This document shows, one piece after another, positions 2 through 21,416 of a stretch of DNA of 64,000 nt (the stretch's first letter is position 1; each line of letters starts with the position of its first letter). The stretch is from Exiguobacterium acetylicum (GTDB lineage: Bacteria > Bacillota > Bacilli > Exiguobacteriales > Exiguobacteriaceae), in the NCBI RefSeq assembly GCF_022170825.1, contig NZ_CP081878.1, positions 336,001 through 400,000 on the forward strand, given 5' to 3'. Both the position numbers and the translations under genes were made by a program. Under the pieces are notes generated by a model. It saw nothing but the letters and a program-made list of their open reading frames with translations. It did no database searches and was not told where the DNA came from.

Positions 2-1243
2 TCAAACAATAAAGAACTAGAAATGACGAAAGAAATAAAAGTATATAACTTATTGTACGCATCATCGTCGATTTATGCTGAAAAAATCGTAGAAGGATGG
101 AATGAAGAACAAAACTGGGATATTTGTAATGATTGTTCTAGTAAAAACATATGCATTATAAATAGCAATCATTTAGCTTTAAGTGATAAAACAACAAAAA
201 ATCGAATGATGCGTATGTATAAATCTTTAGATATGAACGGTAAGCATATGACAATGCGAGAGCTACTCATTCACTTAGCCTATACGCAAACAGGCGGAAT
301 GGCTTGCAAAGATATACATGAGGCTTCTAATAGTGAATCAATCCAAGCGTTAGCAAAAAAATCGTACTATGAGAACTTTTTTGGTAACAACCTTAGACCA
401 GAAGTCTTTGAGGAAATTGGTGGCATCCAAGAATTTAAATCATTGGATCCTGGATACATTTCAGACTCTTTAATTGATGACTTTTTACTTAATGGTGACT
501 TAAGTAGTAACGAACAAATAAAAGACACACATCACACTTTGTTTGGTAAAGATATTGATGTTGAAAACGGTGCTTATTATGAAGATGTAAAAATGTATCG
601 TTCAAATATACATGGTGATAATGTGAACGGTGTTGAATTAATGAATAAATGGTTTCCTAGATTACGAAGAAAGTATTACTTTGAGTCTCAAGATAATAAA
701 AAGGTTGAAAAATTAATCCCTTATCGTCACCGGTATGATTTTATAAGCATTCTTCATAGAGGAAAAATTGAACATAGCATAAAGGTTAAACTTGTAGATG
801 GATTAAATACATTCTTCGCAAAGAGAATGGTGTATTCTCCTTCTCATCAGCTGTATGTATCTTCAGATAGTTTATTAGTTCATCAAATTATTGGGCTAGA
901 TCAAGTGGAATTTCATATACAAGGTAAAAATGAAACAATAGATCAAACAGGTACAAAATTAACTTTGAGTGTACAAGGTGTAGAACTAGCTATTAATTTA
1001 GTGACTTTTGAATATCTAATGCGTTTGAGTAATGGGGGCATGTTAAACGTTTTGAGAGAACATGTAGAGATATTACTTAATAGTTTTCGAAATAGATTGA
1101 TTTCACTAAAAAAACAAGATGAAAATATTTTACAAATTTTGAAATTCGATCGTGTTCAAGGGGCATTTGTATTAGAGACAATTGAAATTAATGAAAATGG
1201 AGATACTGGTATAGATATTGATCCTGAAGATGATGATTTTTAA
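2..1243 (+). CDS. sspF: SspF/DptF-like ATPase, C-terminal part (5' end off window)
   Basis: Partial gene. The frame stays open to the left edge of the window, so the ATG at 23 is probably internal and the true start lies outside. The visible 413 or so codons would follow an upstream AAA+/P-loop core, which cannot be seen. Counting from the ATG at 23, residues 34-50 hold a C-x2-C-x5-C-x5-H pattern that could bind zinc. After it comes a lid-like stretch (MTMRELLIHLAYTQTGG) of the kind found C-terminal to the ATPase core in DNA phosphorothioation-dependent restriction proteins (DptF). The C-terminus is very acidic (DPEDDDF). It is the first gene of an F-G-H run in which G and H follow closely. 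Assignment as SspF/DptF rests on this order and the motif pattern. It could be another defence AAA ATPase. Codon use is strongly AT-rich. Confidence 0.55.
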   Translation, partial: SNNKELEMTKEIKVYNLLYASSSIYAEKIVEGWNEEQNWDICNDCSSKNICIINSNHLALSDKTTKNRMMRMYKSLDMNGKHMTMRELLIHLAYTQTGGMACKDIHEASNSESIQALAKKSYYENFFGNNLRPEVFEEIGGIQEFKSLDPGYISDSLIDDFLLNGDLSSNEQIKDTHHTLFGKDIDVENGAYYEDVKMYRSNIHGDNVNGVELMNKWFPRLRRKYYFESQDNKKVEKLIPYRHRYDFISILHRGKIEHSIKVKLVDGLNTFFAKRMVYSPSHQLYVSSDSLLVHQIIGLDQVEFHIQGKNETIDQTGTKLTLSVQGVELAINLVTFEYLMRLSNGGMLNVLREHVEILLNSFRNRLISLKKQDENILQILKFDRVQGAFVLETIEINENGDTGIDIDPEDDDF

Positions 1244-1276
1244 ATCTAAGTAAAAGTGGTTGAAAGGGTGTTAGAG

Positions 1277-2896
1277 ATGCAAGAAGAAAGTACAAAATTT
1301 TCTAGTAAGATTGGTGCTGAAATATGGGGACATCGTTTTAAAGATGGACAGCGCGGACCAGAGTATACTTTAGAGTTTTTAAACGTATTTGCTGGAACAG
1401 GTTTTAGTCTAGAAAAGAAGTATTATGACCGAAGAAAAATGATTGAATTTCGCCAGTTTGTCTATGAAGGAGAGAAAGAGGGCGCAAAAGGTCATACTGC
1501 AATTTTTGAAGCAAAGAAAAAAGATGTAATTCAAAAGAAACTTGGAGTAAGTGAAAAACAATTAGAAGATTTACAAGTGTTCTTTAAAAATCTAACTATT
1601 CCTCTAATGACACCGATGGGAAAACCAGTTGATCGCTCTTGGTACGCTCAAATGATGTACCCTCTCCACGAGTCATTGCTTTTTTCTGAAGTTCGTGTAA
1701 ATAGAGATAAAGGTAACTCGAAAAATTTAACCATTAATTATGAACGTAATTTTTTTGCTCGTGGTGGAGAATTGTATTTTTTAATGTTGCATTATGGAAC
1801 CTTAAATAATCCTGAATTAAGGATTAGTATCGAGAAAAACATGAAAACACTACTATCTAGCTCTAGTGGGGTAATTGCTGTCATTAATCAAATTAATGAA
1901 GCATTTAGTGAGTATAGTACTGGAGATCAGCCGGCACCACTAATTAAAGATAAAGAATTATCGAATGTTATTACTAGTTGGGAAAGTAGTGAATATCCAA
2001 CTTTACCAAATACAGATTTAGCACTGTATAAAGAATTTGCAGAAGAACTTAATGCATTGCTCATGCTAAGCATTGATATTTATGAAATGTTTGATATTTT
2101 AACTTCTCTCATAACATTTCAACTTCATCGCTATATGATTTTTCAATCAGAACAAATTATTGGTGAAACGAGCAATTATTTCATTGATTGTTTAGAAGGT
2201 CAGAATAAATCAATTAAATTTTTAGCTCAAGATTCTTATCGAATTCACGAAACTATAGTAAGAGAAGCGTATAAAACGTTTGTGGAAGATCGAGTAGAAG
2301 AAATATTTTCTGAAGATAAAGCAGAAGAAAAAATTTATTTTTGGAGAAATAATTTCGATGGCTCTGAAAAAGATAAAGTGAAGGGTTATTCTGGATTTTT
2401 TAATGAATTAAATTTAAATAGTCTTCAAGCAACAAAAAAGAAAAAACTTATTGAGGCATTAGAGACTAAAGATATTACTAATGCTAAAAAGTTACTTAGA
2501 TTACGGATCATAGAACTTTATATGGAGGATTTATCTAAAACACAAGTCCCTATTATGAAAACTTTGGCTCGTGATGGTCAGTTTATTGTTTCTGGAAAAG
2601 GATCCAAAGCTCGATATGTACTACATGATAATGTCTTAAGTGCTTTAGTGTATGCAACTCTCAATGGTCAGAATAACTTACCATATGATGATTTCTTAAA
2701 TGAATTATTCCTAAAATATCGCATTATTATTGGGGAAGATGCCGCTAAGCTTTCTGGACTGTATTCAAAAGAGGGAATCAATCTAAGTCACTTTAGAAGC
2801 AATGAGAAAAAAATGAGACAAAAATTAAAACAAAATGGACTACTCCAAGAATACTCAGATGCAACAGCATTAGTTACAAATCCTTATTTTAATTGA
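1277..2896 (+). CDS. sspG: SspG/DptG-like phosphorothioate-restriction component (candidate)
   Basis: A 539-residue protein with no signal peptide or membrane segment and no motif I can name with certainty. The ATG at 1277 is chosen over the in-frame GTG at 1256 because a GAAAGGGTG ribosome site ends six bases before it. Notable features are basic/acidic helical stretches, a conserved-looking N-terminal block (IGAEIWGHRF, residues 12-21) and a predominantly alpha-helical second half. It sits 33 bases after the DptF/SspF-like gene and 29 bases before the giant translocase gene, so the three are almost certainly co-transcribed. Family knowledge: DptG/SspG are the middle subunits of restriction complexes that pair with phosphorothioate modification. 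The biochemical role of this subunit is not apparent here. The name is inferred mainly from position and size. Confidence 0.5.
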   Translation: MQEESTKFSSKIGAEIWGHRFKDGQRGPEYTLEFLNVFAGTGFSLEKKYYDRRKMIEFRQFVYEGEKEGAKGHTAIFEAKKKDVIQKKLGVSEKQLEDLQVFFKNLTIPLMTPMGKPVDRSWYAQMMYPLHESLLFSEVRVNRDKGNSKNLTINYERNFFARGGELYFLMLHYGTLNNPELRISIEKNMKTLLSSSSGVIAVINQINEAFSEYSTGDQPAPLIKDKELSNVITSWESSEYPTLPNTDLALYKEFAEELNALLMLSIDIYEMFDILTSLITFQLHRYMIFQSEQIIGETSNYFIDCLEGQNKSIKFLAQDSYRIHETIVREAYKTFVEDRVEEIFSEDKAEEKIYFWRNNFDGSEKDKVKGYSGFFNELNLNSLQATKKKKLIEALETKDITNAKKLLRLRIIELYMEDLSKTQVPIMKTLARDGQFIVSGKGSKARYVLHDNVLSALVYATLNGQNNLPYDDFLNELFLKYRIIIGEDAAKLSGLYSKEGINLSHFRSNEKKMRQKLKQNGLLQEYSDATALVTNPYFN

Positions 2897-2925
2897 TGCA
2901 AAGTAACGGGAAGGAGCATTAAGCA

Positions 2926-5900
2926 ATGATTGCAAGAATTAATCAAAAAGAAAAGATAATAGGCAGTTGGATTGCACAACATTTACTTAATTATCTTAAA
3001 GATCATAAAAACAAAAATGCTGAAAAAGTACTAGTGAAGATAGAAGGAATAAACGAAGAATACTTTCCAGCGATCTTAAATGCTTTATTGGAAAATCAAA
3101 CTCAACTCAAAAGTTTTTATGAACCATTGATACGGACTATAAAACAAATTGACGGTTATGATTCATTTGTTTTGAATGAAAACGAAAATGGAGTATGGTT
3201 GCGAAATAATGTAAAAACGAATGAAGCATTAATTTTATTAATGAATGAGCGAACACCAGAAGCTCAAAGCTTAAAAGATATTGTTTCTATTGATGAAACA
3301 CAATTACTATCATCAGATGGATTTTTCAGTTTAGACCAATCTCTACGAGAAAAAGGATATTTAGAACCACATCAAATAAAAGATTTGCTCAAACTAATTG
3401 GAGCATATCAGCATAGAGGAGAACTTGATTTACAACTCTCAATGCTTATTGCTTATATTGAAAGTGTTTTACAAGAGAAGGAAATATCTAATGATACATT
3501 TAAAGTGGTTTTAGGAAAATCTCTTCCTCATTTTCGGCTATTTAAAGACGAGCATTTAAAGTTTGAGTCACTAGATGGTCTTCGTAGTCAGCTTAGAAAA
3601 AACTTTTTATTAAGTCACTTAAGAAAAACCTTAGTAAATTATTTAGAGCCAGAAAAGTTGATGAAAAATGTAGATAATTTTATTACTAATGAAGAAAAAA
3701 ATAATTTTTCAAGTGAAGTTTGGAAAAGCTTTAATAACGATAAAGTATTGTTTTTAGAAAAAACTATGGAGTTTATTGAAAGACGAAACAATGACCTTTT
3801 AAATCTCGTTTCATACAATGATGCAGAACGAATTTTTGGATTTAAAGTGTCTAATTCTTTAAAGGATAAATTGAATAATGCAAGAGATATAATTCTAGAC
3901 AATTTTGCAGAGAAAATTAGAGAAGCAAAAAGTATTGAAGAAGAGAGCCAATTAAAGCAAGAAAAAATGGAGGCTGAAAGTCGTTTTGATCGTGGCGTTG
4001 AAGCCGTAAATTCTAAAAATGACATTGAGGCGATTCGAGAATTTCGAGAAGAATATGAACAAGAACTTGAAAAAGAAAATATACTGAAAAAAATTATTAA
4101 TATTGAAAACAAGCTTGAGAATCCATCTGAATACATTGATATTTTTGAAGCGATTTTATCTGAAAGTTTAGTGATGTTAGAGGAAATAGATCATGAAGAA
4201 TTCAGTGGTAATCTTACCTTTGAAATTTCAATAGATCAAAATACAGAAGTTTCTGAAGAACAAGCTAGATTCTTTAATTTTCATCTAAAATCTTTATCAA
4301 TGTTGTCTTCAAATATAATTGTTCTTTCGGAATTGAAGAACACTAACGAATCATCTAAAGAGATTGAAGTAATCCCTGTTAAATTACGACTTTTGAAAAA
4401 TGAAAATTCTATAGCGAAATCTACTGTCAAAATTGATGCTAGTAGAACATTAATTGAAACGAGTTTTTCCAAATTTATTAATCAAATTCAAGATGGATTT
4501 TTACATTCTATTATTACGAAAAAGGGTACGCCAGTTGAAGAAGATCTTAATGAGTATTTGAGTGAACAACAAAATTATACCCTTATGTCTGATAAACGAT
4601 TGTTAGAACCTATCGAGCAATTTAAAAAATACAATTCTGAGTACACTAATATTCTTAAATCTATTATCGACGAAAATAGAGGAATAACTATTGAAGATTT
4701 AAATCAAGTAGCTGATCTTAGCGAATCATTTTTAAAGTGCTCGGATCATGATGTAGATAGTGTTAGGAAAATATACTCACTTTTAAATGAAATTGGAACA
4801 ATAAAGATTTTCGAAACTAAAAACGCTAAACAAGCAGAAGTTGAACGTAAAATAGTATCTGTATTTAATCCTATTAGATTTATTGCTTACGGCTTTAAAC
4901 TCATTCATTTTGGAAAATTACTGTCTAATATTTCTGATACATCTGAACAACGCAATAAAATACAAGACGTAGAAGATTTAAAGCAGTACAAAGAGTATCT
5001 AAGAGGATCATTTACTAACTTAGCACCATCTTATTACGTATCTGGAGATGGGAATCATCTATTTGCTCAAGACGAATTGTATGGTCAGGGAACATACATC
5101 GAAGGTGGAGAAATTGAGAGTGTGACCTCCCAAGCAACTTCTTTTGCGAAAGAAATTGAAAAAGTTACAAACGATTATATTCGAGTTTATCCATATGCTG
5201 CGGATTGTTTAGATATTTTATTCTTATATGTTACAAATTTAGAGTTTGTAAAAAAGAGTGTAGAACAAATTTTGAAAAACGATAGCTTAAAGAAGTTGAA
5301 TATAACCATTCACAGTCCTGCGAGAGCTGCAATGCTCTATGATGAGATTAATCAATGGATTCAATCACAAGAAGAGTATATTAACGCTGTAGATTCGTTT
5401 GGTGAATTTCCTAGACTAGAAATCAATGTATTGCCTTTTAGCGATCCCAAAACACTTGCGGAAAAGCTAGATACATCCATGTTAGACTTTGATTTAGCTG
5501 TATTTATTGATTACTTTGGTCAAAGTGATAATTTAAAAATCCCACATCAATTTTACTCAGAAAGCTACAAAGAATGCGAGCTTACAGATAAAAATTGGGT
5601 CTTCTATGAGAATCGCGAATTTAAAGCAGTTAAAGAAGGTACTCGATTAATTAACTACGTTTCACCTAACCAGCCAAAATTGATGCAACAATTTTATAAT
5701 ATGCAAGCGATTTTAAAAGACGGATTAGTCATCGAACCTAATAAAATTGGTTTATTAAAAGGTAGATTATCTGTAACGCGTACAGAAACAAATACGCTAT
5801 ATAAACTTGCACATGAAAAATTTAATTGGGTTGTGACTTACGATAGATTCATGGATCCTTTACTAATGAAACAAGTAGCCGAAGGTTCAAACATTATTCG

Positions 5901-8124
5901 TTATCATGTAAATCGATTAGGAAAAGAAGAAATTAAAGTTCTTGTTTCATCTTCAGACTCAATTAGAAGATCTTCAAAAGTAGATATGGAAGTCAATTAT
6001 TATCGTGATCGTCTCCACAGTAGACTAAAAGATCAGTTGAAAGTTAGTAGTATAGACATACAACAGGTTGATAAAGCGCTTAAAATTGTTAAAGAATTAT
6101 CTGGTGGTCTAGTACTAAGAGCATTAGGACCTGGAAAATTTGTTAACGAATTCTTGTCAGTGTATTTAACTGTTCTACAGGATGAGAAATCTGAGGACAC
6201 AGTAGTTTTATGGGATATGTGCGATGAATTAGAATGGTTTAGAACCCGACAAAAACGTCCGGACTTATTAAAAACAACTATTCAATACTCTCCTGAAATA
6301 GAAACGTATAATGTTAAATTTGATTTAATAGAATTAAAGCTTATACAAGAAGAAAGTTATGTTAGTGAAGTAACTGATGCTAAAGTTCAATTGTTATCAG
6401 GTGAAAAGACGTTAAAAAAATTCTTTAGAAGATTTGATTCTACACTCGAAAGAAACTTATATTTAAATTCATTTTTACTTCATTTAGAAGATAAGCGTGC
6501 ATATGAAGAATTTGAACTAGCGATACTACATGAATTAAGAAATAACGAAAATATTCAAATCAATTTTGAATTTACAAAGTCAATTTATGCTTACATTCAT
6601 AATAAAAACATTGAATTTGAAAGTCGTTCAGAACTTTCACCTGGACACTATTATGAAAGACAAGATGAAAATGAAATAACAGTAAACACTTTTACTAGAT
6701 CATACATTTTATCTGAAATGAATGTTCCTGATCATGAAGTAAACAATGAATTGAAGGATGAAGAACTATCATTATTAGAACAGGTTGCTATAACTGATGA
6801 GAACGAGTACTTTGATCACTATACCGAAATAGATAACAGCAATCTAATTTCGGCTGAAATACTAAAAGATAATACTGTGAAAGGAAGCAACTTACAGAAT
6901 CAAAGTGAATCGAGCATAATAAACGAAAGTCAAAATATTGAAGTAGTTGAAAATACCGAGGAATTTCAATACCCAGAAGATCATGCACTAAAAAACGTTC
7001 AAGCTCCACAAACTGAATCATTTGATGAGGTATTGAAAAAATTAGGTGATAGTTATGCGGACACACTTCAAACTAAACTCCGAATAAATAATGTTCAGTT
7101 TACAGTAGAGAGAACTATCGTAGGTGCTAGTGTCATTCGAATTATTGGTAGAATTCCATCAGATCAAAGTATTACAGCAGTTGAAAAAAAAGCTAAAGAT
7201 ATGCCTTTATGGCTGCACATTGATTCACCGCCAACTATTTTTAGTGATCGAAATGGTATCAATATAGACATTAATCGTAATGATCCTGATACAATTTTCT
7301 TTTCACAGTTTATGAAGTACGTTCGAAGAGATATCACACAAACAGACTTGAAGAATGGTTTTCTTGTTCCTATTGGACTTAACCCTTTAAATGAAGTGAT
7401 GTCAGTTGATTTTAACGGAACAGAACCTCATATGTTAGTCGCTGGATCGACTGGAAGTGGAAAAAGTGTTAGTTTGAATTCAATTGTTATGTCTATGATG
7501 TGTCTATACACACCGCAAGAATTGAAGTTCGTATTTATAGATCCAAAACAAGTTGAATTTTCTATGTTTGAAGATGTTCATCATACTGATAAAGTATTAT
7601 TAGATTTAATGGATTCTGCTGATTATTTAGATGTTATGATTATGGAAATGGAAAATCGATATAGTAAATTTAAAGATGCGTATGCAAAAAATTTAAAAGA
7701 GTATAATGAAGCACTAATTGAAGAAAATAAATTATTTGAAGTTTTACCTCGCATTGTCATTGTTTTTGATGAATTTGCTGATTTCATGATGCAGGATAAA
7801 GAATTTGCACAACGTATCGAAACTGCTATTAAGAGAATAGGTCAAAAAGGACGGGCAGCAGGAATTCATATGATAGTTTGTACGCAATCACCTAAAGCGG
7901 AGATTATTAATACTACTATTAAAAATAATTTGCTAGCACGTTTAGGATTAAAAGTAACAGACGCTGTTGCATCCAACGTGGTATTAGATACAAGCGGTGC
8001 CGAAAATTTAGCGGGTAAAGGCGACTACCTCTTAAAGAAAGATAGAGAACCAGTTAGAGGTAAGAGTCCTTATTTAGAACCACAGTCTTTACGAGCATTA
8101 ATGAGGTTCTTTAAAAATAACTAA
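2926..8124 (+). CDS. sspH: SspH/DptH-like FtsK/HerA-type DNA translocase (1732 aa)
   Basis: A giant cytoplasmic protein with a C-terminal FtsK/SpoIIIE-HerA ATPase domain. The Walker A motif AGSTGSGKS lies at about residues 1506-1514 and Walker B (IVIVFDEFAD) has Asp1615-Glu1616. These are followed by an FtsK-like distal block (TQSPKAEIINTTIKNNLLARL) and a GAENLAGKGDYLL loop. The N-terminal 1400 residues have no domain I recognise. They include a charged helical, coiled-coil-like segment around residues 310-400 and an acidic linker around 1270-1360. Length and domain placement match DptH/SspH, which with F and G forms the DNA-damaging arm of phosphorothioate-based defence. An AAGGAG ribosome site lies nine bases before ATG 2926. 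An intrinsic-terminator-like hairpin follows, separating it from the modification genes. Strong AT bias suggests horizontal acquisition. Confidence 0.75.
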   Translation: MIARINQKEKIIGSWIAQHLLNYLKDHKNKNAEKVLVKIEGINEEYFPAILNALLENQTQLKSFYEPLIRTIKQIDGYDSFVLNENENGVWLRNNVKTNEALILLMNERTPEAQSLKDIVSIDETQLLSSDGFFSLDQSLREKGYLEPHQIKDLLKLIGAYQHRGELDLQLSMLIAYIESVLQEKEISNDTFKVVLGKSLPHFRLFKDEHLKFESLDGLRSQLRKNFLLSHLRKTLVNYLEPEKLMKNVDNFITNEEKNNFSSEVWKSFNNDKVLFLEKTMEFIERRNNDLLNLVSYNDAERIFGFKVSNSLKDKLNNARDIILDNFAEKIREAKSIEEESQLKQEKMEAESRFDRGVEAVNSKNDIEAIREFREEYEQELEKENILKKIINIENKLENPSEYIDIFEAILSESLVMLEEIDHEEFSGNLTFEISIDQNTEVSEEQARFFNFHLKSLSMLSSNIIVLSELKNTNESSKEIEVIPVKLRLLKNENSIAKSTVKIDASRTLIETSFSKFINQIQDGFLHSIITKKGTPVEEDLNEYLSEQQNYTLMSDKRLLEPIEQFKKYNSEYTNILKSIIDENRGITIEDLNQVADLSESFLKCSDHDVDSVRKIYSLLNEIGTIKIFETKNAKQAEVERKIVSVFNPIRFIAYGFKLIHFGKLLSNISDTSEQRNKIQDVEDLKQYKEYLRGSFTNLAPSYYVSGDGNHLFAQDELYGQGTYIEGGEIESVTSQATSFAKEIEKVTNDYIRVYPYAADCLDILFLYVTNLEFVKKSVEQILKNDSLKKLNITIHSPARAAMLYDEINQWIQSQEEYINAVDSFGEFPRLEINVLPFSDPKTLAEKLDTSMLDFDLAVFIDYFGQSDNLKIPHQFYSESYKECELTDKNWVFYENREFKAVKEGTRLINYVSPNQPKLMQQFYNMQAILKDGLVIEPNKIGLLKGRLSVTRTETNTLYKLAHEKFNWVVTYDRFMDPLLMKQVAEGSNIIRYHVNRLGKEEIKVLVSSSDSIRRSSKVDMEVNYYRDRLHSRLKDQLKVSSIDIQQVDKALKIVKELSGGLVLRALGPGKFVNEFLSVYLTVLQDEKSEDTVVLWDMCDELEWFRTRQKRPDLLKTTIQYSPEIETYNVKFDLIELKLIQEESYVSEVTDAKVQLLSGEKTLKKFFRRFDSTLERNLYLNSFLLHLEDKRAYEEFELAILHELRNNENIQINFEFTKSIYAYIHNKNIEFESRSELSPGHYYERQDENEITVNTFTRSYILSEMNVPDHEVNNELKDEELSLLEQVAITDENEYFDHYTEIDNSNLISAEILKDNTVKGSNLQNQSESSIINESQNIEVVENTEEFQYPEDHALKNVQAPQTESFDEVLKKLGDSYADTLQTKLRINNVQFTVERTIVGASVIRIIGRIPSDQSITAVEKKAKDMPLWLHIDSPPTIFSDRNGINIDINRNDPDTIFFSQFMKYVRRDITQTDLKNGFLVPIGLNPLNEVMSVDFNGTEPHMLVAGSTGSGKSVSLNSIVMSMMCLYTPQELKFVFIDPKQVEFSMFEDVHHTDKVLLDLMDSADYLDVMIMEMENRYSKFKDAYAKNLKEYNEALIEENKLFEVLPRIVIVFDEFADFMMQDKEFAQRIETAIKRIGQKGRAAGIHMIVCTQSPKAEIINTTIKNNLLARLGLKVTDAVASNVVLDTSGAENLAGKGDYLLKKDREPVRGKSPYLEPQSLRALMRFFKNN

Positions 8125-8129
8125 ACTTA

Positions 8130-8160
8130 CAAAGTAGCCAAGAGTAATCTGGCTACTTTG
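8130..8160 (+). terminator. Hairpin between sspH and sspB
   Basis: An 11-bp perfect stem (CAAAGTAGCCA / TGGCTACTTTG) with a nine-base loop, followed by a T-rich but not continuous U tract (CTTTGTT). It may partly insulate the restriction genes from the modification genes downstream. Confidence 0.6.
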
Positions 8161-8187
8161 CTTTGTTAAAATTAAGGTGGGTTACAA

Positions 8188-9054
8188 ATGGGTTTTGGAC
8201 AACATCAAAGTTTTTACTTACGTCCGCAATGGTTATATAAAGGATTAACTGAAATTAAAAGCGATCCTCGCTTTTTTTATAATGATACTCATTTTGAACA
8301 ACTAGGATTAGGGAAAAACATGGCGAAATCAGCGAAGTATTGGTTATTCTCGACCGGTCTCATGGAAGAGAAGCGGCAATCGGGAAAAACAGAACATCAC
8401 CTTACTTCTTTAGGAGAATTAGTTGATAGATACGATAAATATATTCAACACCCTGTTACAAAAAGTATTTTGCATTATACTTTAGCCTCTGATCCAAAAA
8501 TTGCAACAAGTTGGTATTGGTTTTTTAATGTATTTAAAGAATCAATTTTCGATAAAGCGTTACTGATAGAAACATTAGAAACCTGGGTTGGTCAGACATT
8601 AGAAAAATCAGTCTCTTCTAATTCACTAAAAAGAGATATTGATTGTCTCATTCAAATGTATAGCCCAAATAACCTTTCATCTACTCCTGAAGATGTTATT
8701 AAAAGTCCGTTCGAAGAATTAGGATTGATAAGTAATACAGTTAAGGGTACTTACAAAAAAACACCACTAGATACAGTGTTTAAGTTTGAAGTACTTTTCA
8801 TCACTTTTTTGATTTATATAGAAAGAAATGAACTCAATGAAGTGAGTCTTGATGAATTAATCGATGGCGAAAAATTATGGGGAAGAATTTTTAATCTTCC
8901 GAGGTCTGAAATTGTTAACTGTCTAGAAGAGATGCAAAAAAGTTATCCAATAATTTTTACTAGAACGAACCGTCTCGATGTAGTTAGAATTACTGATACA
9001 ACTAGTTATTTAGATTATATGGAACGATTTTTTGAAAATGAGGTAGTACTATGA
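8188..9054 (+). CDS. sspB: DUF4007 protein, SspB-like DNA nickase of phosphorothioate modification
   Basis: A 288-residue protein with the DUF4007 layout. The N-terminal FGQHQSFYLRPQWLYKGL stretch is followed by the LGLGKNMAKSAKYW helix (about residues 42-55), which resembles the LGVGKNMV-type signature of the family. Then comes a T-S-L-G element ending in a helical region. Family knowledge: a DUF4007 protein is the SspB component of SspABCD, the single-strand phosphorothioate modification system, reported to nick DNA so that sulfur can be placed in the backbone. Start ATG 8188 has an AAGGTGG ribosome site. Its 3' end overlaps the next gene by four bases (ATGA), implying translational coupling to the large ATPase. 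The assignment is supported further by an SspD-like gene just beyond that ATPase. Confidence 0.75.
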   Translation: MGFGQHQSFYLRPQWLYKGLTEIKSDPRFFYNDTHFEQLGLGKNMAKSAKYWLFSTGLMEEKRQSGKTEHHLTSLGELVDRYDKYIQHPVTKSILHYTLASDPKIATSWYWFFNVFKESIFDKALLIETLETWVGQTLEKSVSSNSLKRDIDCLIQMYSPNNLSSTPEDVIKSPFEELGLISNTVKGTYKKTPLDTVFKFEVLFITFLIYIERNELNEVSLDELIDGEKLWGRIFNLPRSEIVNCLEEMQKSYPIIFTRTNRLDVVRITDTTSYLDYMERFFENEVVL

Positions 9055-12000
9055 AAAAGTTTCAACCTAGTATTAATGTAGTTTATGACACTGGAAAGTC
9101 TGAACTGTTTGATATGTTTGTCCCTAACAATGATCAGTTAGAAATTATGGAAAATATAATTTCGAGTCTTTCTAAAAAAAGCGTAGTCAATTCTCACCTT
9201 ATGATTGGTCCATATGGAGCAGGAAAGTCAATGGTCGGGGCAATTACGGCTTCTTTAATAACAGCAAGAAAAAACAGTAAAGATGTAAAGTCGTTTTTAT
9301 ATAACGTGAGTGGTTTAAATAATGGCTTATCGGATAAAATTAAAGATAATTTATATGAGAACAATATTAAGTGGATTCCGATTACTATCACAGGTAAAAA
9401 CGGACGGATTGATGACATTATTTTAGAAGCTATTCAGTTGAAATTAAAGTCAGAAGGGATTGTTTTATCTCTTAAAGGAGATAGTGAGCAAATTCTTCAA
9501 ACAATTGAATTGTGGAAGAGAGACTATAAAGATACGTATTTAAAATTAATAAATTTATGTACAGCTTTTGGATGCACTATAGAAGAATTGGTTGAAGGAA
9601 TCACTACAAACGATGAGAAATTTATAGTGGAATTTAAAAAAATGTATGGGACTTTGACTTCTGGAGCTACATATATTTCAGAATCAAAAGCATCATTTGT
9701 TGAGAAAATTCAACACTTAACGAATCAATTATCTATAAAAAAATTGGGGCTTTTTATTATTTATGATGAGTTTGGAAGATTTCTTCAAGGTGTAAACCAA
9801 TCGTTGATTTTTCAAACTATGCAAGATTTACAAGATATCGCTGAATTTGCAAACAGGTCTTCAAATTTAGGCTTACTCTTTATTACTCATACAGGTCTTC
9901 GACAGTATTCAACAGAGAGTAATAATTTATCTAAAGAAGAATTAGAAAGAGTTGAAAAAAGATTTGAATCACATCGTTTAGATAGTGATCCCTCTTTATT
10001 CTATAGAACAGCCTTTAAAATACTTGAGATTGTTAAAGAAGATAATACACCAAACCTATTTTTATTAAACGATATTGAAAAAATAAAGAACGATTTAAAA
10101 AAATATAGTCTTTTTCCGGATATGGAAGTATCTGAAGTTGAGAATTTTATTTTAGAAAAGTGTCAACCTATACACCCACTAACAATTAGATTATTACCTA
10201 TTCTTTCGAACATGCTAGGACAAAATGATCGAACATTATATACATTTTTATCTCAATTTGATGAGAATAGTCTAGAAACTGATTGGTATTATGCAGATCA
10301 ATTGTTTAATTATTTTTATCCAGATGAATCTTCATTTTATCTAATTGATGATTTAAAGTATTATCGACTATCAATGAGTTACCAAATATCCAACGAAGCG
10401 AAAAGACTCGTAAAGTTAATGACTTTATTGAATATATCTAATAAGCCTTTTAAACTTTCTATAGATTTTTTATCTTTTGCACTAGGTAGTAGCGAGATAG
10501 AAATACGAGAAAGCATAGAAGAACTAAAAAGAATAAAGATAATAAGATATAATCCACTAGCTTCATCGTATGAATTATATAGTGGCTCTATACTTTCTTT
10601 AGAATCCCTAGTAGAGGAATATCGTTCTAAAACAGTTATTAATGATGAATCTAGAATTAAATTTTTAAATAACTTTTTACCTAATAAATATTTTCTGCCT
10701 CATGAGTATAACAGCGTCAAAAGCATGACACGCTTCGTGGAATCTCAATTTACATGGGGAAACATATTGAACTTAAATGTTCCTGCTGGTGATGGAATGC
10801 TGCTATATATGATTTATAGAAATGATCAAGAGTTAAAAAATATCCGGGACTTCGTAATAAATTCTAAAAGAAAAGATATTATAGTTTGCATTACGAAGTT
10901 AAATACTAAAGATCTAATTATTAAATTAGATGAATTTATGATTTTAGATCTTCTACTAAATACTTCAGAACTACTTCAACAAGATGAGAATTTAGAAGCG
11001 GAAATTTTAATTCATTTAGAAAATATAAGATTCGAAATCGAAAAACTATTACGACCAATTAGGCATTTTGAAAAAGATAATTTAACTTGGTATATCAATA
11101 ACGAAGTTTTCAAAATCGATTCAAAGAGTTTACTTGAAAAGAAGCTTTCGAAATGGATGTTCGATAGATTTCCTGTAACACCTGAAATTAGAAATGAAGG
11201 ATTCAACAAAAAAAATGTTACGTCTATCCAAAAGAAAGCTGCTAAAAGTATTTTATCTCAGCTACTTGCGCCTACATTTTCAGGTGATTTTGACATCAAG
11301 GGATTTGGTCCGGATTATTTAATTTATGCAACTATGTTTAAAAACACAGGAATTGATACAAATAACCTAAGTCAAATAGCTGATGATAATTTGTTGAAAT
11401 TAAGGTACGATTTGCTTTCATACCTTAAACAAAATAGAAGAGGAAAAATTGTCGGTTTATATGATTTATTAAAACAAGAACCTTATGGTATTAGAGAACC
11501 ACTAATACCACTATTATTAATAGCTCTATTAAAAGACGTTTGGCATCAGATGGCGTTTTATTCAAATGATTTTTATATTCATGAATTAAATGCAGACATG
11601 CTATATGATATTTTAGAATTAAGAGCAGATTTTTATGAATACGAACTATATGAATTATCTTCAGTAAATTTAAATTTACTCAAAGATATAAATACTACGT
11701 TTTTCAATGGTACTTTATCAGAACAGCCTGTCATAATTTTTACAGAGTTAACGCGATGGTTACGGAGCTTACCAAGATATACTCAAGTAACCGACCAACT
11801 GATTGTTAATGAAAATCAATTCAAAGAGATTATTCGACATAGTGAAACAGACCCACTTGCATCAATCAATAATCTCGCAAAAATTGTTGGAAATGATTCT
11901 GATTTAAAGGCATTAAAATTAGGACTCGAAAACCATTTGAGTCTTTTGACAGAACAGATTAAAAAAGAAGTTCTTCTTAAAATGAAAGTTGAATCAAGCA

Positions 12001-12398
12001 AAGATATTCATGAGTGGGCTGATAGAAATAAAGAACTTGTGTTAAGCAGTCCAATATTAGCTGGATTCGTTTCAGAGTACGCTCAGAATAAAGATTGGTT
12101 AGCATATTTAATTGAAAAAATTGTTGGAGTGGCACTAAAAGACTGGTCAGATGTCACATATGATTCGTTTTGGATGAATTTCAAGCAGTTATTGGTGACG
12201 AACCAAAATCAAAATGGATTAATCAAAATAGTGACTGATAATCAAACCGTTATGGAAATCAAAGAAGTGGAGCTTTCTGTTAAAGGGAAGACTATTTACA
12301 ACAATGTAAGTAGAATAGTAAATGCTGGTAGTAGAACAATGTCAGATGATGAAATCCGCTTTGTTGTGTATAAGATTCTAAGTGAATTAGAATCTTAA
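9051..12398 (+). CDS. sspC: SspC-like large P-loop ATPase of phosphorothioate modification
   Basis: A 1115-residue cytoplasmic protein. Walker A is GPYGAGKS (residues 53-60). A hydrophobic Walker B strand ends in Asp239-Glu240 (LFIIYDEFG). It is followed by a sensor-like strand (GLLFITHTG) about 45 residues later. Beyond the ATPase core come roughly 700 helical residues, a plausible winged-helix section around 440-510, and no membrane segments. The size and Walker placement also resemble BrxC/PglY-type defence ATPases. However, its four-base overlap with a DUF4007 gene and the nearby PAPS-reductase-family gene favour the SspC role, that is, the ATPase partner of SspB and SspD. The gene ends 46 bases before a perfect 21-bp inverted repeat shared with the convergent sspD-like gene. 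Confidence 0.65.
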   Translation: MKKFQPSINVVYDTGKSELFDMFVPNNDQLEIMENIISSLSKKSVVNSHLMIGPYGAGKSMVGAITASLITARKNSKDVKSFLYNVSGLNNGLSDKIKDNLYENNIKWIPITITGKNGRIDDIILEAIQLKLKSEGIVLSLKGDSEQILQTIELWKRDYKDTYLKLINLCTAFGCTIEELVEGITTNDEKFIVEFKKMYGTLTSGATYISESKASFVEKIQHLTNQLSIKKLGLFIIYDEFGRFLQGVNQSLIFQTMQDLQDIAEFANRSSNLGLLFITHTGLRQYSTESNNLSKEELERVEKRFESHRLDSDPSLFYRTAFKILEIVKEDNTPNLFLLNDIEKIKNDLKKYSLFPDMEVSEVENFILEKCQPIHPLTIRLLPILSNMLGQNDRTLYTFLSQFDENSLETDWYYADQLFNYFYPDESSFYLIDDLKYYRLSMSYQISNEAKRLVKLMTLLNISNKPFKLSIDFLSFALGSSEIEIRESIEELKRIKIIRYNPLASSYELYSGSILSLESLVEEYRSKTVINDESRIKFLNNFLPNKYFLPHEYNSVKSMTRFVESQFTWGNILNLNVPAGDGMLLYMIYRNDQELKNIRDFVINSKRKDIIVCITKLNTKDLIIKLDEFMILDLLLNTSELLQQDENLEAEILIHLENIRFEIEKLLRPIRHFEKDNLTWYINNEVFKIDSKSLLEKKLSKWMFDRFPVTPEIRNEGFNKKNVTSIQKKAAKSILSQLLAPTFSGDFDIKGFGPDYLIYATMFKNTGIDTNNLSQIADDNLLKLRYDLLSYLKQNRRGKIVGLYDLLKQEPYGIREPLIPLLLIALLKDVWHQMAFYSNDFYIHELNADMLYDILELRADFYEYELYELSSVNLNLLKDINTTFFNGTLSEQPVIIFTELTRWLRSLPRYTQVTDQLIVNENQFKEIIRHSETDPLASINNLAKIVGNDSDLKALKLGLENHLSLLTEQIKKEVLLKMKVESSKDIHEWADRNKELVLSSPILAGFVSEYAQNKDWLAYLIEKIVGVALKDWSDVTYDSFWMNFKQLLVTNQNQNGLIKIVTDNQTVMEIKEVELSVKGKTIYNNVSRIVNAGSRTMSDDEIRFVVYKILSELES

Positions 12399-12444
12399 TA
12401 GATACTACAGTTATTTGATGCTTAGCGATTGTTTATCGTATCCA

Positions 12445-12492
12445 TCTATACAAAAAGGTAGTGGAATTTTATCCACTACCTTTTTGTATAGA
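12445..12492. terminator. Bidirectional terminator between convergent sspC and sspD
   Basis: Perfect 21-bp inverted repeat (12445-12465 with 12472-12492) around a six-base loop, with A5 and T5 runs within the stem so that it can end transcription from both strands. Confidence 0.85.
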
Positions 12493-12498
12493 TTTTAT

Positions 12499-13383
12499 TT
12501 ATGAGAAAGAGCATACACAAGGAATTGTATCGTCTTTTTCACTTAAATATTTTTCAATTCCGTCTCTATCCATCAATTCTCTATATTCACGCAATGTGAA
12601 TGGTCCACCGTTTCTTTTTAGAATAGAAACATCTTTCTCAAACTTACTGCGGAAGCGTTCTTCCATAGCTTCTTGCTCGGCATATTGCTCGGGCCAGACA
12701 TTATATAAAAGAGCGTAATGACCTAAGCCACCTCTGACACATCGACCAGCGCAGTTTGCGTGAGAAAAGCCTAAACCATACATTCTTGGCAACGCAATTT
12801 TCCATTCATCACGAATAATCTCTTTTGTATCAAGATCACCTTTAAAAGTTTCAATCATAGGAAATCGTGTTTCTATCGGTTCGATTGGATTATGCTCATA
12901 GAAATTTTGAAGGTTGATAGCTCGATGCTGCTCATGAGGTCCAATACCGAAATAAAGGATTGGTTCAAGATTATGTTCGTCTCGAAGTTCTTCGAGATAA
13001 ATCATTGTTTGACGAACCTTTAATTCCTCAGAACATTTAGCCATACGTGAATTACCCAAGAATTTAACGTCGTGGAAAACTTCATCAGGCGTTCTGCCAT
13101 CTATTCGAGTAGTAATCTCCATGCCGATATACTCTGCTACTTCATCCATGAATCGGTAGTTGTCGATATCTTCCCAAAGTGTGTCAGTGAAAAAAAGAAC
13201 GCAGTTTTCTTTGCCGTATTTCTGAACGATATGATAAGCAACATAAGCGGAAGATGCACCGCCACTAAACATTGCTACGTGCACTGGCTTTCTACCAGAT
13301 AATGAAGGAGTAGTACCTGCTTTTAATACACCTAGTGCTGATCGATCAGAGGTTTTTTGGGTCTTTACTTTATTCATGTCCAT
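12499..13383 (-). CDS. sspD: SspD-like PAPS-reductase/ATP-pyrophosphatase family protein
   Basis: A 294-residue PP-loop protein of the phosphoadenosine-phosphosulfate reductase/DndC superfamily. The PP-loop SGGASSA is at residues 40-46. Candidate iron-sulfur or persulfide cysteines are Cys117 (AKCSEE), Cys211 and Cys215 (NCAGRC) and Cys289/Cys291 at the extreme C-terminus (CVCSFS). Family knowledge: DndC and SspD activate the DNA backbone with ATP and deliver sulfur for phosphorothioation. Start ATG 13383 (minus) has a GAGAGGTGG ribosome site. Unlike the usual sspABCD order, it lies on the opposite strand, convergent with sspC, with its own upstream region (a weak TTGTAT-N17-TTATAC promoter is possible). 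Its base composition is less AT-rich than that of sspFGH. It could alternatively be a general PAPS-reductase-like protein, but the neighbourhood makes SspD the best reading. Confidence 0.72.
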   Translation of the reverse strand: MDMNKVKTQKTSDRSALGVLKAGTTPSLSGRKPVHVAMFSGGASSAYVAYHIVQKYGKENCVLFFTDTLWEDIDNYRFMDEVAEYIGMEITTRIDGRTPDEVFHDVKFLGNSRMAKCSEELKVRQTMIYLEELRDEHNLEPILYFGIGPHEQHRAINLQNFYEHNPIEPIETRFPMIETFKGDLDTKEIIRDEWKIALPRMYGLGFSHANCAGRCVRGGLGHYALLYNVWPEQYAEQEAMEERFRSKFEKDVSILKRNGGPFTLREYRELMDRDGIEKYLSEKDDTIPCVCSFS

Positions 13384-13549
13384 CTCAAAACCACCTCTCT
13401 CGAAAACAAAATATCCATTTATTTTCTAATTATAAGTATAAGGTTCATTTCTAATTAAATACAATAATTTGTTTGACCTTAGTAGGGAATTAGAATTTAA
13501 TCGTATAATATTTACTAAAAGCGAATTAATCGTGAATAGAGGTCCCTAT

Positions 13550-14404
13550 ATGCATTCAAAACTATTTCTTATTGAAGGACTCCCGGGCTCAGGCAAAACC
13601 ACCACAGCTGAGGCCTTAACGCGTCTACTACAAGAGCAACAAATCAATGTGCGTCTTCATATCGAGGGAGATCTCAACCATCCCGCAGATTATGAAAGTG
13701 TTGCTTACTTAACGATGAATGAATGGACAGACTTTCAGAGGAAGTATGACTTACTTGATATTCTGCGATTTACTGAAGTGTTCAATGATTACGTACTGGT
13801 ATCGTATCGCCAGCGGCAATCAGAACAGGATGTTCCTGAAGCAGCCCTTACATTTCTACAAGCACGCGATATCTATGAATTGCAGTTTGAGCTATACCAA
13901 TCACTGATTTTCAAGAAATGGGAGGCATTCGTCGCTCGAGCGTTAACGATGGATACAACATATGTTTTTGAGTGCTGCTTCTTGCAAAACCCATTGACGA
14001 TGGGGCTTATCAAATACGATTTACCGGAAGAGACGTTACGAGCGTATATTAATCGCTTAGTAACAATCATCGCACCGTTACAACCCGTTCTCGTCTATGT
14101 TGATCAACCGGATGTAGAACGAAGCTTCCGCAAAGCGTTAAAAGAGCGTCCTACAGAATGGGCGGACGGATTCGTATCCTATTACACCGAGCAAGCATAT
14201 GGTGTGAATCACTCGTTATCAAGAGTGGAAGGAACGATTACGATCTTACAGGCGCGAAAAGCATTAGAGCGTCAGTTGTTAAAAACGCTTCCGTTTAGAG
14301 TAGAGGTATTCGGAAATGAAGATTTTTCAGTAGAAGCAAGACAAGTCTGGTTAAAGCAGTTGATTCAGTCAACTGTGCGTTCGACTTCTTTAAGCGAGAG
14401 CTAA
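13550..14404 (+). CDS. P-loop kinase-like protein of unknown substrate
   Basis: A 284-residue soluble protein opening directly with a Walker A motif (IEGLPGSGKTT, about residues 8-18), the pattern of nucleotide/nucleoside kinases and related P-loop phosphotransferases. The ATG at 13550 is preferred over an earlier in-frame start at 13469 because AGAGGT precedes it and the P-loop then sits at the usual N-terminal position. No substrate-specific motif was recognised. Conserved Trp/Tyr-rich helices (DLLDILRFTEVFNDYVLVSYR and the segment near residue 220, EWADGFVSYYTEQAYG) suggest a lid and base-binding region. It is the first gene past the defence island with genome-like codon use, and it ends at an intrinsic terminator, so it is probably monocistronic. 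Confidence 0.55.
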   Translation: MHSKLFLIEGLPGSGKTTTAEALTRLLQEQQINVRLHIEGDLNHPADYESVAYLTMNEWTDFQRKYDLLDILRFTEVFNDYVLVSYRQRQSEQDVPEAALTFLQARDIYELQFELYQSLIFKKWEAFVARALTMDTTYVFECCFLQNPLTMGLIKYDLPEETLRAYINRLVTIIAPLQPVLVYVDQPDVERSFRKALKERPTEWADGFVSYYTEQAYGVNHSLSRVEGTITILQARKALERQLLKTLPFRVEVFGNEDFSVEARQVWLKQLIQSTVRSTSLSES

Positions 14405-14463: not shown

Positions 14464-14871
14464 TCAATCTTCTAGTTGAATGACTTTTCGAGTGAACGTC
14501 AAAAAGTCTTCAAGTTGATGATCTACTATCTTTCGAAGATTGTTTAAATCAATCGCCTGATCATCATGAATAGCAACACGACAGAATTCGATCATGTTGA
14601 TTAGACTAATAACAAGAGACACATCAATGAGATGTGCTTCTTTAAGAAACCGAAAACCATCACGTCTCGATTTTGGTATGCCTAGCTTATTTGCTCTGAC
14701 TAAATACATAGATAGATCGATACTTGCTTCACATGTGCGTTGAATATTCATGATGATACTATCTAGCTTAGTGTAATCCTCTAAAAGGTTAGGAGCATCT
14801 GCATAAACGTCCTGTATTCGTTTCAGAGCGTTTTCGATTGTCTTTATTTTATGCAAGACTGCATTATCCAT
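14464..14871 (-). CDS. HepT-like (DUF86 family) protein with degenerate RX4HXY motif
   Basis: A 135-residue all-helical protein resembling the HepT/DUF86 family (compare YutE of Bacillus). ATG 14871 (minus) is preferred to GTG 14883 because AAGGAAG abuts the GTG but is about 11 bases from the ATG. HepT toxins carry R-x4-H-x-Y, where the Arg and His are needed for RNase activity and the Tyr is the AMPylation target of the MntA antitoxin. Here the equivalent segment is F96-C97-R98-V-A-I-H102-D103-D104, so the Arg is Cys and the Tyr is Asp. No MNT-type nucleotidyltransferase antitoxin gene is adjacent. It is therefore more likely an inactive or repurposed relative than a toxin. Family assignment is moderate; the residue reading is direct. 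Confidence 0.55.
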   Translation of the reverse strand: MDNAVLHKIKTIENALKRIQDVYADAPNLLEDYTKLDSIIMNIQRTCEASIDLSMYLVRANKLGIPKSRRDGFRFLKEAHLIDVSLVISLINMIEFCRVAIHDDQAIDLNNLRKIVDHQLEDFLTFTRKVIQLED

Positions 14872-14950
14872 TCTGAAAAACACTTCCTTGGATTTTATTC
14901 GACTTTATCGTAGATGCTTTGCTTCTTCCGCTCAAAGTAATTCATAAAAT

Positions 14951-15610: not shown

Positions 15611-15629
15611 GTGAAATGGAGTGAGTAGC

Positions 15630-16643
15630 ATGGGAACAATTTATGATTTAGCGAAGATGACCGGTTTTTCGATTACAACGGTCTCAAAAGCCTTAAATAA
15701 CTATTCGGATGTCAGCGAAAAGACGAAAGCAAAAATCGTCCAGGCAGCAGCCGAGATGGGATACTTACCGAACGCGCACGCCCAGTCGCTCTCGACGAAA
15801 CGTTCGTGGACGATCGGTGTCATGTTCTCGGAAGCACATGGCGTCGGAATGATGCATCCGTTCTTCAACGCGATCATTGAAAGTTTCCGAAAAGCAACAG
15901 AGCAACAAGGGTATGATCTCATCTTCGCATCGCGGAATTTACGCAATCGCGACATGAGTTACCTCGAGCATTTCCGACACCGGGCAGTCGACGGCATCGT
16001 CGTCATCTGTTCCGATCAGATGGACCAGCACGTCCAAGAATTGATTCAAAGTACGATTCCAATCGTCGTCGTTGATATGGACAGTGCCGATTGTAGTGTC
16101 GTCTACTCGGATAACATCAACGGTGGAACACTTGCCGTCAATCATCTGCATGAACTCGGTCATCGGTTGATCGCCCACATTGCGGGGGATACGTCGACAG
16201 ATGCCGGAAGAGCGCGGATTGAAGGCTACGAGCAAGCGATGGAACAACTTGATTTACCAATTCCAGATGGTTATCTCGTCAACGGCGGATTCTTTTCCGG
16301 TGAAGAAGGAAAGCGGGCGATGAACGAATTGCTGGCTTTACCTGAGCGACCAACAGCTGTCTTCGTTGCCGGGGATGAAATGGCAATTGGTGCGATTGAA
16401 GCGATTCATGAAGCCGGTTTACGGATTCCGGAAGACATCTCAGTCGTTGGATACGATGATATCTACATGGCGCAGTACATCACACCGAAGCTGACGACGG
16501 TCCGGCAAGATACGGAAACGATTGGTCAGCATGCAGCATCAGTCTTGATTGAACAGATCGTCAATAAAAAACGGGTCACGACACGTGACGTCATCCCGGT
16601 CAACTTAATGGTTCGTCAATCGACAGGTCCAGTACCTGAATAA
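15630..16643 (+). CDS. LacI-family regulator of the beta-glucan operon
   Basis: A 337-residue LacI/GalR-family repressor. The N-terminal helix-turn-helix and hinge (TIYDLAKMTGFSITTVSKALNNY) are followed by a periplasmic-binding-protein-like sensor domain with typical blocks (GIVVICSDQ, GRARIEGYEQAM, ISVVGYDDI). ATG 15630 is used rather than GTG 15621 because GGAG ends eight bases before it. It has its own promoter with a palindromic operator, so it probably represses itself. Identical palindromes precede the downstream transporter/glycosidase genes. The likely inducer is a beta-glucan-derived oligosaccharide such as laminaribiose or cellobiose, an inference from the GH1 and GH16 genes. A strong terminator follows the gene. 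Confidence 0.88.
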   Translation: MGTIYDLAKMTGFSITTVSKALNNYSDVSEKTKAKIVQAAAEMGYLPNAHAQSLSTKRSWTIGVMFSEAHGVGMMHPFFNAIIESFRKATEQQGYDLIFASRNLRNRDMSYLEHFRHRAVDGIVVICSDQMDQHVQELIQSTIPIVVVDMDSADCSVVYSDNINGGTLAVNHLHELGHRLIAHIAGDTSTDAGRARIEGYEQAMEQLDLPIPDGYLVNGGFFSGEEGKRAMNELLALPERPTAVFVAGDEMAIGAIEAIHEAGLRIPEDISVVGYDDIYMAQYITPKLTTVRQDTETIGQHAASVLIEQIVNKKRVTTRDVIPVNLMVRQSTGPVPE

Positions 16644-16656
16644 CACAATGGTTGTT

Positions 16657-16707
16657 TCGGAATCGCTCTCGCTCGTTGTCAGTGAGAAAAAGCGAGAGCG
16701 ATTTCGA
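16657..16707 (+). terminator. Terminator after lacI-type gene
   Basis: 17-bp stem (16657-16673 with 16691-16707, one G-U pair), loop of 17 bases, then AATCATTTTTTA. Confidence 0.8.
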
Positions 16708-16729
16708 AATCATTTTTTATCACTTTTTC

Positions 16730-16743
16730 CGAAAGGGCTTTCG
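16730..16743. promoter_or_regulatory. LacI-type operator, upstream copy
   Basis: CGAAAGGGCTTTCG, one base from the perfect palindrome. Its centre is 36 bp from the next operator, compatible with paired binding. Confidence 0.6.
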
Positions 16744-16764
16744 GGGATTTTCTTTAAAGCCTTT

Positions 16765-16780
16765 TCGAAAGCGCTTTCGA
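16765..16780. promoter_or_regulatory. LacI-type operator, perfect copy
   Basis: 16-bp perfect palindrome TCGAAAGCGCTTTCGA, containing the same 14-mer as the autoregulatory site at 15597. Confidence 0.8.
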
Positions 16781-16797
16781 TATTTTTGGATAACAAA

Positions 16798-16827
16798 TTG
16801 AAACCGCTTACCTATAAGCGGAATACT
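16798..16827 (+). promoter_or_regulatory. Probable sugar-operon promoter overlapped by a cre-like site
   Basis: TTGAAA (16798-16803), 18-base spacer, AATACT (16822-16827). TGAAACCGCTTACC (16799-16812) matches the CcpA consensus at 13 of 14 positions and covers the -35 box. The spacer also holds the inverted repeat CCGCTT/AAGCGG. The -10 is weak and the leader would be short, so the exact promoter is tentative. Confidence 0.5.
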
Positions 16828-16847
16828 TAACAAAAGGATGAGATGAG

Positions 16848-18155: not shown

Positions 18156-18162
18156 GGAGAGT

Positions 18163-18187
18163 AGGTGGGGCGATCCTCGCCTCGCCT
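18163..18187 (+). other. mRNA hairpin between binding-protein and permease genes
   Basis: An 11-bp stem with two G-U pairs (AGGTGGGGCGA / TCGCCTCGCCT) and a three-base loop, placed after the binding-protein stop. Such intercistronic hairpins usually stabilise the upstream mRNA or attenuate the downstream genes. Confidence 0.5.
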
Positions 18188-18215
18188 CTTCTTGTTTAAG
18201 AAAGGGGTTTGACCT

Positions 18216-19112: not shown

Positions 19113-19115
19113 CCG

Positions 19116-20039: not shown

Positions 20040-20062
20040 GCAGTTTAAAGGGGATTACACAT

Positions 20063-21409: not shown

Positions 21410-21416
21410 CAAAGGA

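Follow-up and report, generated by a model that had tools for sequence, protein, structure and literature searches.

The window, a 64,000-nucleotide stretch of the 3.36 Mb genome of Exiguobacterium acetylicum (G000:C1:336001-400000), begins with six genes that very probably constitute an sspBCD-sspFGH phosphorothioate restriction-modification set, in which SspH joins a DNA motor to a candidate nuclease and whose presence goes along with the exclusion of a PLD-helicase enzyme. The genes sspF, sspG, sspH, sspB and sspC follow each other on the plus strand, with gaps of 12, 29 and 63 bases between F, G, H and B and an overlap of 4 bases between B and C, and sspD is located on the minus strand. 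The initial annotation had assigned the cassette to the Ssp type by domains and gene order. All six open reading frames (ORFs) that it listed are present, and their order was found as claimed, with the refinement that sspD is convergent and lies outside the operon.

PADLOC Ssp models matched all six proteins, and the profile searches returned SspF, SspG, SspH, SspB, SspC and SspD as well as DUF4007. F and G are covered over most of their length and C over about two thirds, and F, G and H are adjacent in the window. Because PDLC02796, PDLC02801 and PDLC02806 match F, G and H, respectively, this branch is already covered by public models. An alternative would be a system of the DndFGH, MADS or BREX type with only individual domains in common with Ssp, as the BrxC model matched SspC (E = 6e-30), the BrxP model SspB (5e-9), the MAD8 model the FtsK part of SspH only (3e-21) and the MAD7 model SspG at 16 bits, with a cut-off of 410. 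However, for every one of these proteins the Ssp model scores much better (7e-95 for the SspC model, against 6e-30 for BrxC), so that the large ATPases were not placed in BREX/Pgl. Moreover, no Dnd model was listed by PADLOC at E <= 1 for the seven proteins scanned, and in seven neighbouring ORFs no match to BREX, MADS, Dnd or SspE was obtained at E <= 0.001. This alternative is therefore regarded as extremely improbable. The Dnd models are functional in the genus, where they matched proteins of genomes G010 and G006. An SspE model was found neither among the cassette proteins nor in the seven neighbouring ORFs. None of the 11 Aminotran_5 places in the genome adjoins the cassette (nearest C1:201624); desulfurase genes are present elsewhere, namely a SufS-type gene (stretch L004), a NifS/IscS-type gene beside mnmA (L005) and a gene of the IscS subfamily (L006).

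Conservation was read from 15 SspH, 15 SspG, 14 SspF, 14 SspB, 13 SspC and 15 SspD sequences. The H of L108, which is in pieces, genes cut by the end of a stretch or contig (such as C of L072) and G002 were excluded beforehand, and the SspD row of L027 was kept though it comes from a genome without DUF4007.

The protein encoded by sspB (8188-9054, plus strand, 288 amino acids) is a DUF4007 protein, as annotated initially (PF13182, E = 1.5e-69), and would be a nickase by homology; it matched the PADLOC SspB model (2e-55) and solved SspB (6juf/6lb9, 9e-17). The start of sspC (9051-12398, plus strand, 1115 amino acids) shares ATGA with the sspB stop, in agreement with the coupling described before. 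Its product is a P-loop ATPase with the Walker A motif GPYGAGKS at residues 53-60, of which G53, G56, G58, K59 and S60 are invariant in 13 out of 13 sequences, as are D239-E240; a search of the SspC profile against PDB sequences gave no match. The sspD gene (12499-13383, minus strand) encodes a PP-loop ATP-pyrophosphatase of 294 amino acids. Its expected PAPS-reductase-family membership was recovered (PAPS_reduct PF01507, 3e-5), and the PADLOC SspD match was weak (3e-12). The protein carries an SGGASS loop, and C117, C211, C215 and C289 are invariant in all 15 D-like rows. Since D proteins that are 58-67% identical to it are encoded consecutively with B and C in L074, L075 and L076, the PP-loop protein is identified as SspD. 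The SspD profile also matched PDB chain 21fy_C, named PptA (4e-22), for which no paper was found in a literature search that covers subscription journals poorly.

Among SspB, SspC and SspD, SspD is under the strongest constraint. Compared with G002, its codons show 60 synonymous and no amino-acid differences, and compared with G003 58 and three. For SspB the corresponding numbers are 30 and 11 (G002) and 49 and 18 (G003), and for SspC 209 and 87 (G003). A recent transfer of sspD, considered as the proteins of G000 and G002 are 100% identical, was rejected because the two genes differ at 61 nucleotide sites without any change in the protein. Decay of the cassette does occur in the genus: in G002, a frameshift divides sspC (L014:12073-15419), and sspF (L014:2522-4138) stops about 40 codons early. 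In the window genome, in contrast, all six frames are open and of full length, and the absence of amino-acid changes alongside 60 synonymous ones in SspD relative to G002 indicates purifying selection. It is thus very unlikely that the cassette is decayed or silent there.

The DptF/SspF-like fragment of the initial annotation was confirmed as SspF, a P-loop NTPase, and is a fragment only by the window edge. The 3' part of sspF occupies positions 2-1243 (plus strand) and the first 494 bases precede the window; the whole gene (L002:17507-19243) encodes 578 amino acids. The PADLOC match (PDLC02796) increased from 7e-162 for the fragment to 4e-245 for the whole protein. The Walker A motif GNAGDGKT is encoded outside the window, and G60, A62, G63, D64, G65 and K66 are invariant in all 14 proteins compared. 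In Exiguobacterium chiriqhucha (L053:5896-6564) and E. alkaliphilum (L054), SspF has about 220 additional N-terminal residues, for which Pfam yielded only a sub-threshold Tudor_RapA match (0.0064) in L053. The sspG gene (1256-2896, plus strand) encodes 546 amino acids from a GTG codon; an alternative start at 1268 results in 542 amino acids and corresponds to the G start in G002 and E. antarcticum. SspG matched PDLC02801 (6e-143), and residues invariant in 15 out of 15 sequences include WGHR (24-27), E172, R453-Y454, S534-D535 and N542-P543. Against PDB sequences the best match of its profile was E = 0.18, and no domain was assigned.

SspH (2926-8124, plus strand) is a protein of 1732 amino acids that matched PDLC02806 (2e-92), the best stretch spanning residues 532-1726 only. 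Its C-terminal part (residues about 1482-1730, positions 7369-8115, plus strand) is an FtsK/SpoIIIE-type translocase motor, in line with the FtsK/HerA giant described initially. Pfam FtsK_SpoIIIE was found at residues 1482-1656 (5e-43), the motor profile matched solved FtsK structures (2iuu, 1e-66), and the Walker A (GSTGSGKS, 1507-1514) and Walker B (FDEF, 1614-1617) motifs could be placed.

The first 1400 residues had been described as without readable function. For part of them an answer can be proposed: residues of about 1058-1240 (positions 6097-6645, plus strand) resemble a PD-(D/E)XK nuclease and are a candidate for such a domain ahead of the motor, and residues 1-1050 are still without assignment. 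The D...(D/E)xK signature is present in this region (D1113, E1136, K1138), with a spacing of D-x22-E-x-K-x16-Q and an upstream E in the window protein. E1075, D1113, E1136, K1138 and Q1155 are invariant in all 15 SspH. These fall into two groups that are 17-19% identical to each other, the window's group and a group of ten sequences taken from bacilli, plasmids and contigs of the viral collection. A structure model of residues 1035-1262, built from six sequences, is of low confidence (mean pLDDT 60, pTM 0.64), with block means of pLDDT 69-79 over model residues 71-130. A model of residues 40-1239, also from six sequences, reached a pLDDT of 37 and was discarded. The top of the VIA-align list for the low-confidence model consists of PaqCI (7.6, 7.5), Shedu/SduA (6.1, 6.0, 5.9), McrBC chains (6.0, 5.6), DdmD (5.5) and AspBHI (5.5). 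We take all of these to be PD-(D/E)XK enzymes, and the McrBC chains to be McrC; row 10 of the list is not a PD-(D/E)XK protein, and lower rows mix in unrelated folds.

Several results weigh against a nuclease in this region. Foldseek gave no match at E <= 0.001 for the model against the PDB and viral models, the domain profile gave nothing significant against PDB sequences and Pfam, and the comparison with the DndH profile resulted in a probability of 0.4%, which is no significant similarity. Together with the low confidence of the model, this would fit a region that is not a nuclease, in which case SspG, SspF or a host enzyme would be the source of the DNA damage by SspFGH. In the accessible text of the 2021 SspFGH paper, in which this damage is described, only a Walker A motif in SspF and, for SspH, its FtsK-like end are named, and it is left open which protein cuts DNA (PMC8092258). 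On the other hand, the residues of the D-x22-E-x-K-x16-Q pattern and the upstream E are invariant across two groups sharing 17-19% identity, nucleases presumed to be of the PD-(D/E)XK type head the structural list, and DndH, a functional analogue, is described as having its nuclease at the equivalent place, ahead of the motor (PMC10853773). It is therefore considered unlikely that the region is not a nuclease and the damage has one of these other sources. With the candidate nuclease in SspH, the residues D1113, E1136 and K1138 make the question of the cutting protein addressable by point mutants.

By analogy with the named homologues, a housekeeping cysteine desulfurase would supply the sulfur, SspD would activate the DNA phosphate with ATP and hand on the sulfur, SspB would nick the recognition site, and SspC would be the ATPase that places or powers the modification complex. 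SspF, with its P-loop, and SspG may hold SspH on the DNA, so that the FtsK-like motor could travel along it and the candidate nuclease domain (about 1058-1240) could cut or nick at sites that do not bear the self mark. How the DNA is marked, which motif is recognised and how the mark blocks SspH are likewise predicted from these homologues. SspFGH of Vibrio is reported to harm E. coli cells without the mark (PMC8092258).

The cassette is flanked by a RidA-type gene (Ribonuc_L-PSP, 7e-42) that has a match in all 19 genomes of the genus. In 14 of these, RidA is followed by a PLD-ResIII-helicase enzyme of the 775-amino-acid type, within 0.5 kb in 13 genomes and at 1.8 kb in G018. A gene of 107 to 130 amino acids is located between RidA and the enzyme in all nine intervals read of the 14; the one in L078 matched PRA-PH barely above cut-off. 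In the other five genomes, the RidA neighbour is an ssp set (G000, G002, G003) or a dnd set (G006, G013), and both dnd sets begin with a DndD/PbeC-like gene. The RidA-side interval of ten other genomes of the genus (L078-L087, L029) is a defence hotspot, the contents of which differ by genome and include DndFGH, BREX, type ISP, Tmn and GmrSD as well as a Cas12f/TnpB-like gene in L084.

The enzyme (for example L078:1403-3730 and L119:8670-11033) has the architecture PLD, ResIII, helicase and matched the mREase_IV model (2e-85) and PbeA (5e-34). In the two cases examined closely its length is about 775-787 amino acids, of which about 246 form the C-terminal part. For this part no reader domain was found above cut-off in Pfam (HNH_repeat at 0.0013 and 1.5e-5, both sub-threshold), nothing in PADLOC at 0.001 and only matches of E = 0.08 or worse among PDB sequences. 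Winged-helix sensors of adenine methylation (PMC11037411) were considered as a possible identity of this part. The last ~80 residues diverge strongly between close orthologues (such as those of L078 and L029), in which the remainder is conserved, and this variable tail might be a specificity region. In some genomes of the second genus, a small ORF after the enzyme (L121:11392-11862, L127:9485-10117) is 27-32% like the enzyme C-terminus, as if a putative reader had been duplicated downstream. Plasmid relatives of the enzyme were found in 21 records at E <= 1e-50, with an identity of at most 41% among the 12 listed.

Full-length orthologues of the enzyme with at least 50% identity were counted in 38 genomes of the family. 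The enzyme is present in 30 out of 30 genomes without SspB or DndC, and in none of the eight with one of them, which have either DUF4007 (G000, G002, G003, G086, G390) or DndC (G006, G013, G240), in each case above cut-off. A sub-threshold DndC match in G015 (a 68-amino-acid frame) and a paralogue of 962-1078 amino acids with 32-38% identity, also present in G000, were not counted, and the assembly of G390 is 8% contaminated. The pattern was found in 19 genomes and tested on the other 19, where the enzyme occurred in 16 of 16 without and in none of three with these genes. The chance of this distribution is 2e-8 if genomes are treated as independent, which they are not. A tree of the genus, which is based on RidA and its other flank and has long branches, requires four changes, of which supported branches force three; one dnd case and a pair of ssp species come from the second genus. 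There, the enzyme is located beside fixed flank genes in all four genomes looked at of 16 (G034, G373, G101, G114), and the same flanks enclose a dnd set in G240 and an ssp set in G086, which is the same sequence as E. chiriqhucha L053; L054 of E. alkaliphilum is the same sequence as G390. The cassette occupies the place of the family's PLD-helicase enzyme, and these observations suggest that it excludes the enzyme.

The number of independent events is small, which counts against a conflict between the enzyme and sulfur-marked DNA: a sign test on the three pairs gave p = 0.25, with only two further cases in the second genus. In addition, seven of these eight genomes have their sulfur genes at the place that the enzyme takes in relatives, five times beside RidA and in G240 and G086 between the same flanks. 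A mere exchange of alleles at one insertion site, without functional conflict, would account for this and is a serious possibility, put at somewhat below an even chance. However, the enzyme was not displaced by other cassettes of this island: it is retained beside DndFGH without DndC in G010 and, at 27-33% identity, in G114, and beside BREX (G004), type ISP (G014), Tmn (G011) and GmrSD (G001, G034). Furthermore, the ends of the replacement differ. The 107-amino-acid partner gene, s107, persists next to the dnd genes in G240 and next to the ssp genes in E. chiriqhucha, where it is intact, with the enzyme gone, and neither s107 nor the enzyme was found in E. alkaliphilum L054 and the five intervals from the genus. 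Because s107 is kept in some replacements and lost in others, it is the enzyme whose loss is shared. A functional conflict with sulfur-marked DNA is thus the simplest reading, and the pattern suggests that the PLD-helicase enzyme would attack the cell's own phosphorothioated DNA. That it is a phosphorothioate-triggered type IV enzyme of new architecture, so that ssp and dnd sets can enter a genome only by replacing it, is given slightly less than an even chance. If true, the conflict would explain the patchy phosphorothioation in Exiguobacteriaceae, with the enzyme guarding the family against sulfur-marking DNA, and the exclusion pattern would offer a way into why phosphorothioation spreads so unevenly.

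Exiguobacterium is reportedly mentioned once in a 2009 paper on dndDB. Named relatives of SspH in one scan were found in E. antarcticum, E. chiriqhucha and E. alkaliphilum. In other bacilli (L074, L075, L076), B, C, D, F, G and H are consecutive. L073 has a D with 58% identity and, three genes on, F, G and H, in a stretch without B and C; L072 has F, G, H, B and C, and D is not within the stretch; no ssp gene is present in the stretch L077, which comes from the weakest G hit. Plasmids L109-L112 carry B, C and D beside F, G and H, and in plasmid L108, the gene table of which is incomplete, only the desulfurase gene was seen. The viral-collection contigs L097 and L099 carry B, C, D, H and a GmrSD-type gene, and L097 also G. 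The GmrSD-type protein adjoins ssp genes at L099:5462-7297, L097:7508-9862 and L053:19741-21882. As that of L099 matched SspE (2e-50), both restriction arms seem to be encoded on this contig. An SspD-like gene on a V. anguillarum plasmid lies in a stretch where no ssp neighbours are annotated. In G017 (L088:9793-10803), a protein distantly related to SspD (33-38%) is encoded among many small ORFs on the same strand, which gives the region a prophage-like look.

The E. chiriqhucha and E. alkaliphilum proteins are 45-49% identical to those of the window for B and C, and 75-83% for D, F, G and H. An exchange of sspB-sspC between lineages was weighed as a reason for this difference; the C tree retains the grouping of the two Exiguobacterium pairs, the B tree is undecided, and faster evolution may also explain it.

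In the gap between sspH and sspB a 13-bp inverted repeat is located at positions 8129-8161 (no strand). Inverted repeats with other letters were read by eye at the equivalent position in E. chiriqhucha and E. alkaliphilum, and RNAalifold gave no consensus RNA structure on the alignment of this gap. Perhaps these repeats separate the expression of the restriction genes from that of the modification genes. Between sspC and sspD a terminator-like hairpin with a 20-bp stem and a T-rich tail was found at 12445-12492 (L003:13445-13492), and the region contains 15 terminator-like sites compared to a mean of 5.6 in shuffled sequences. The next gene (13469-14404, P-loop, kinase-like) is present in 8 of 19 genomes of the genus, compared to 3 of 19 for DUF4007; since it also occurs without the cassette, the cassette is concluded to end at 13383. 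A gene for a HepT-like ribonuclease (14464-14883; PF01934, 7e-17) lies a short way past the cassette. Further downstream (15621-23828), a LacI-type regulator, a solute-binding protein, a GH1 enzyme and a GH16/CBM protein are encoded, together with ORFs that look like transporter permeases, judged from their translations alone.

The cassette has the same six families as those described for SspBCD-SspFGH of Vibrio anguillarum FF-93 (PMC8092258). As in FF-93, the desulfurase gene lies outside the cassette, with IscS-type genes elsewhere in the genome, and a further resemblance is that neither the cassette proteins nor the seven neighbouring ORFs scanned matched an SspE model. Unlike in FF-93, F-G-H-B-C are in one direction and D is convergent. 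Like DndFGH as described in PMC10853773, it has a P-loop F, a middle subunit and a giant H with a putative nuclease before a HerA/FtsK motor; for DndG, the idea of a triple winged helix is put forward in the same paper. In contrast to DndFGH, the seven proteins scanned match no Dnd model, and a profile comparison of the SspH domain with DndH was not significant.

The displaced enzyme shares the PLD and ResIII-helicase architecture with SauUSI and PbeA, the latter of which works with phosphorothioation in archaea (PMC6459918), and it differs from both in its ~246-residue C-terminal part, which matches no reader domain above cut-off. In the accessible text of PMC6459918, PMC7461809 and PMC12707154, a literature in which subscription journals are poorly covered, no SauUSI-like enzyme is tied to phosphorothioate beyond PbeA. 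EcoWI-type SBD-HNH enzymes likewise rarely share a neighbourhood with dnd genes: less than 3.6% of the predicted SBD-HNH enzymes may have them nearby, and these enzymes are described as being used against phosphorothioation by bacteria without phosphorothioation (PMC7461809). In contrast to these SBD-HNH proteins, the displaced enzyme is a PLD-helicase with a putative dependence on sulfur, and the exclusion pattern thus offers a candidate for a second kind of DNA-sulfur-reading enzyme, next to SBD-HNH.

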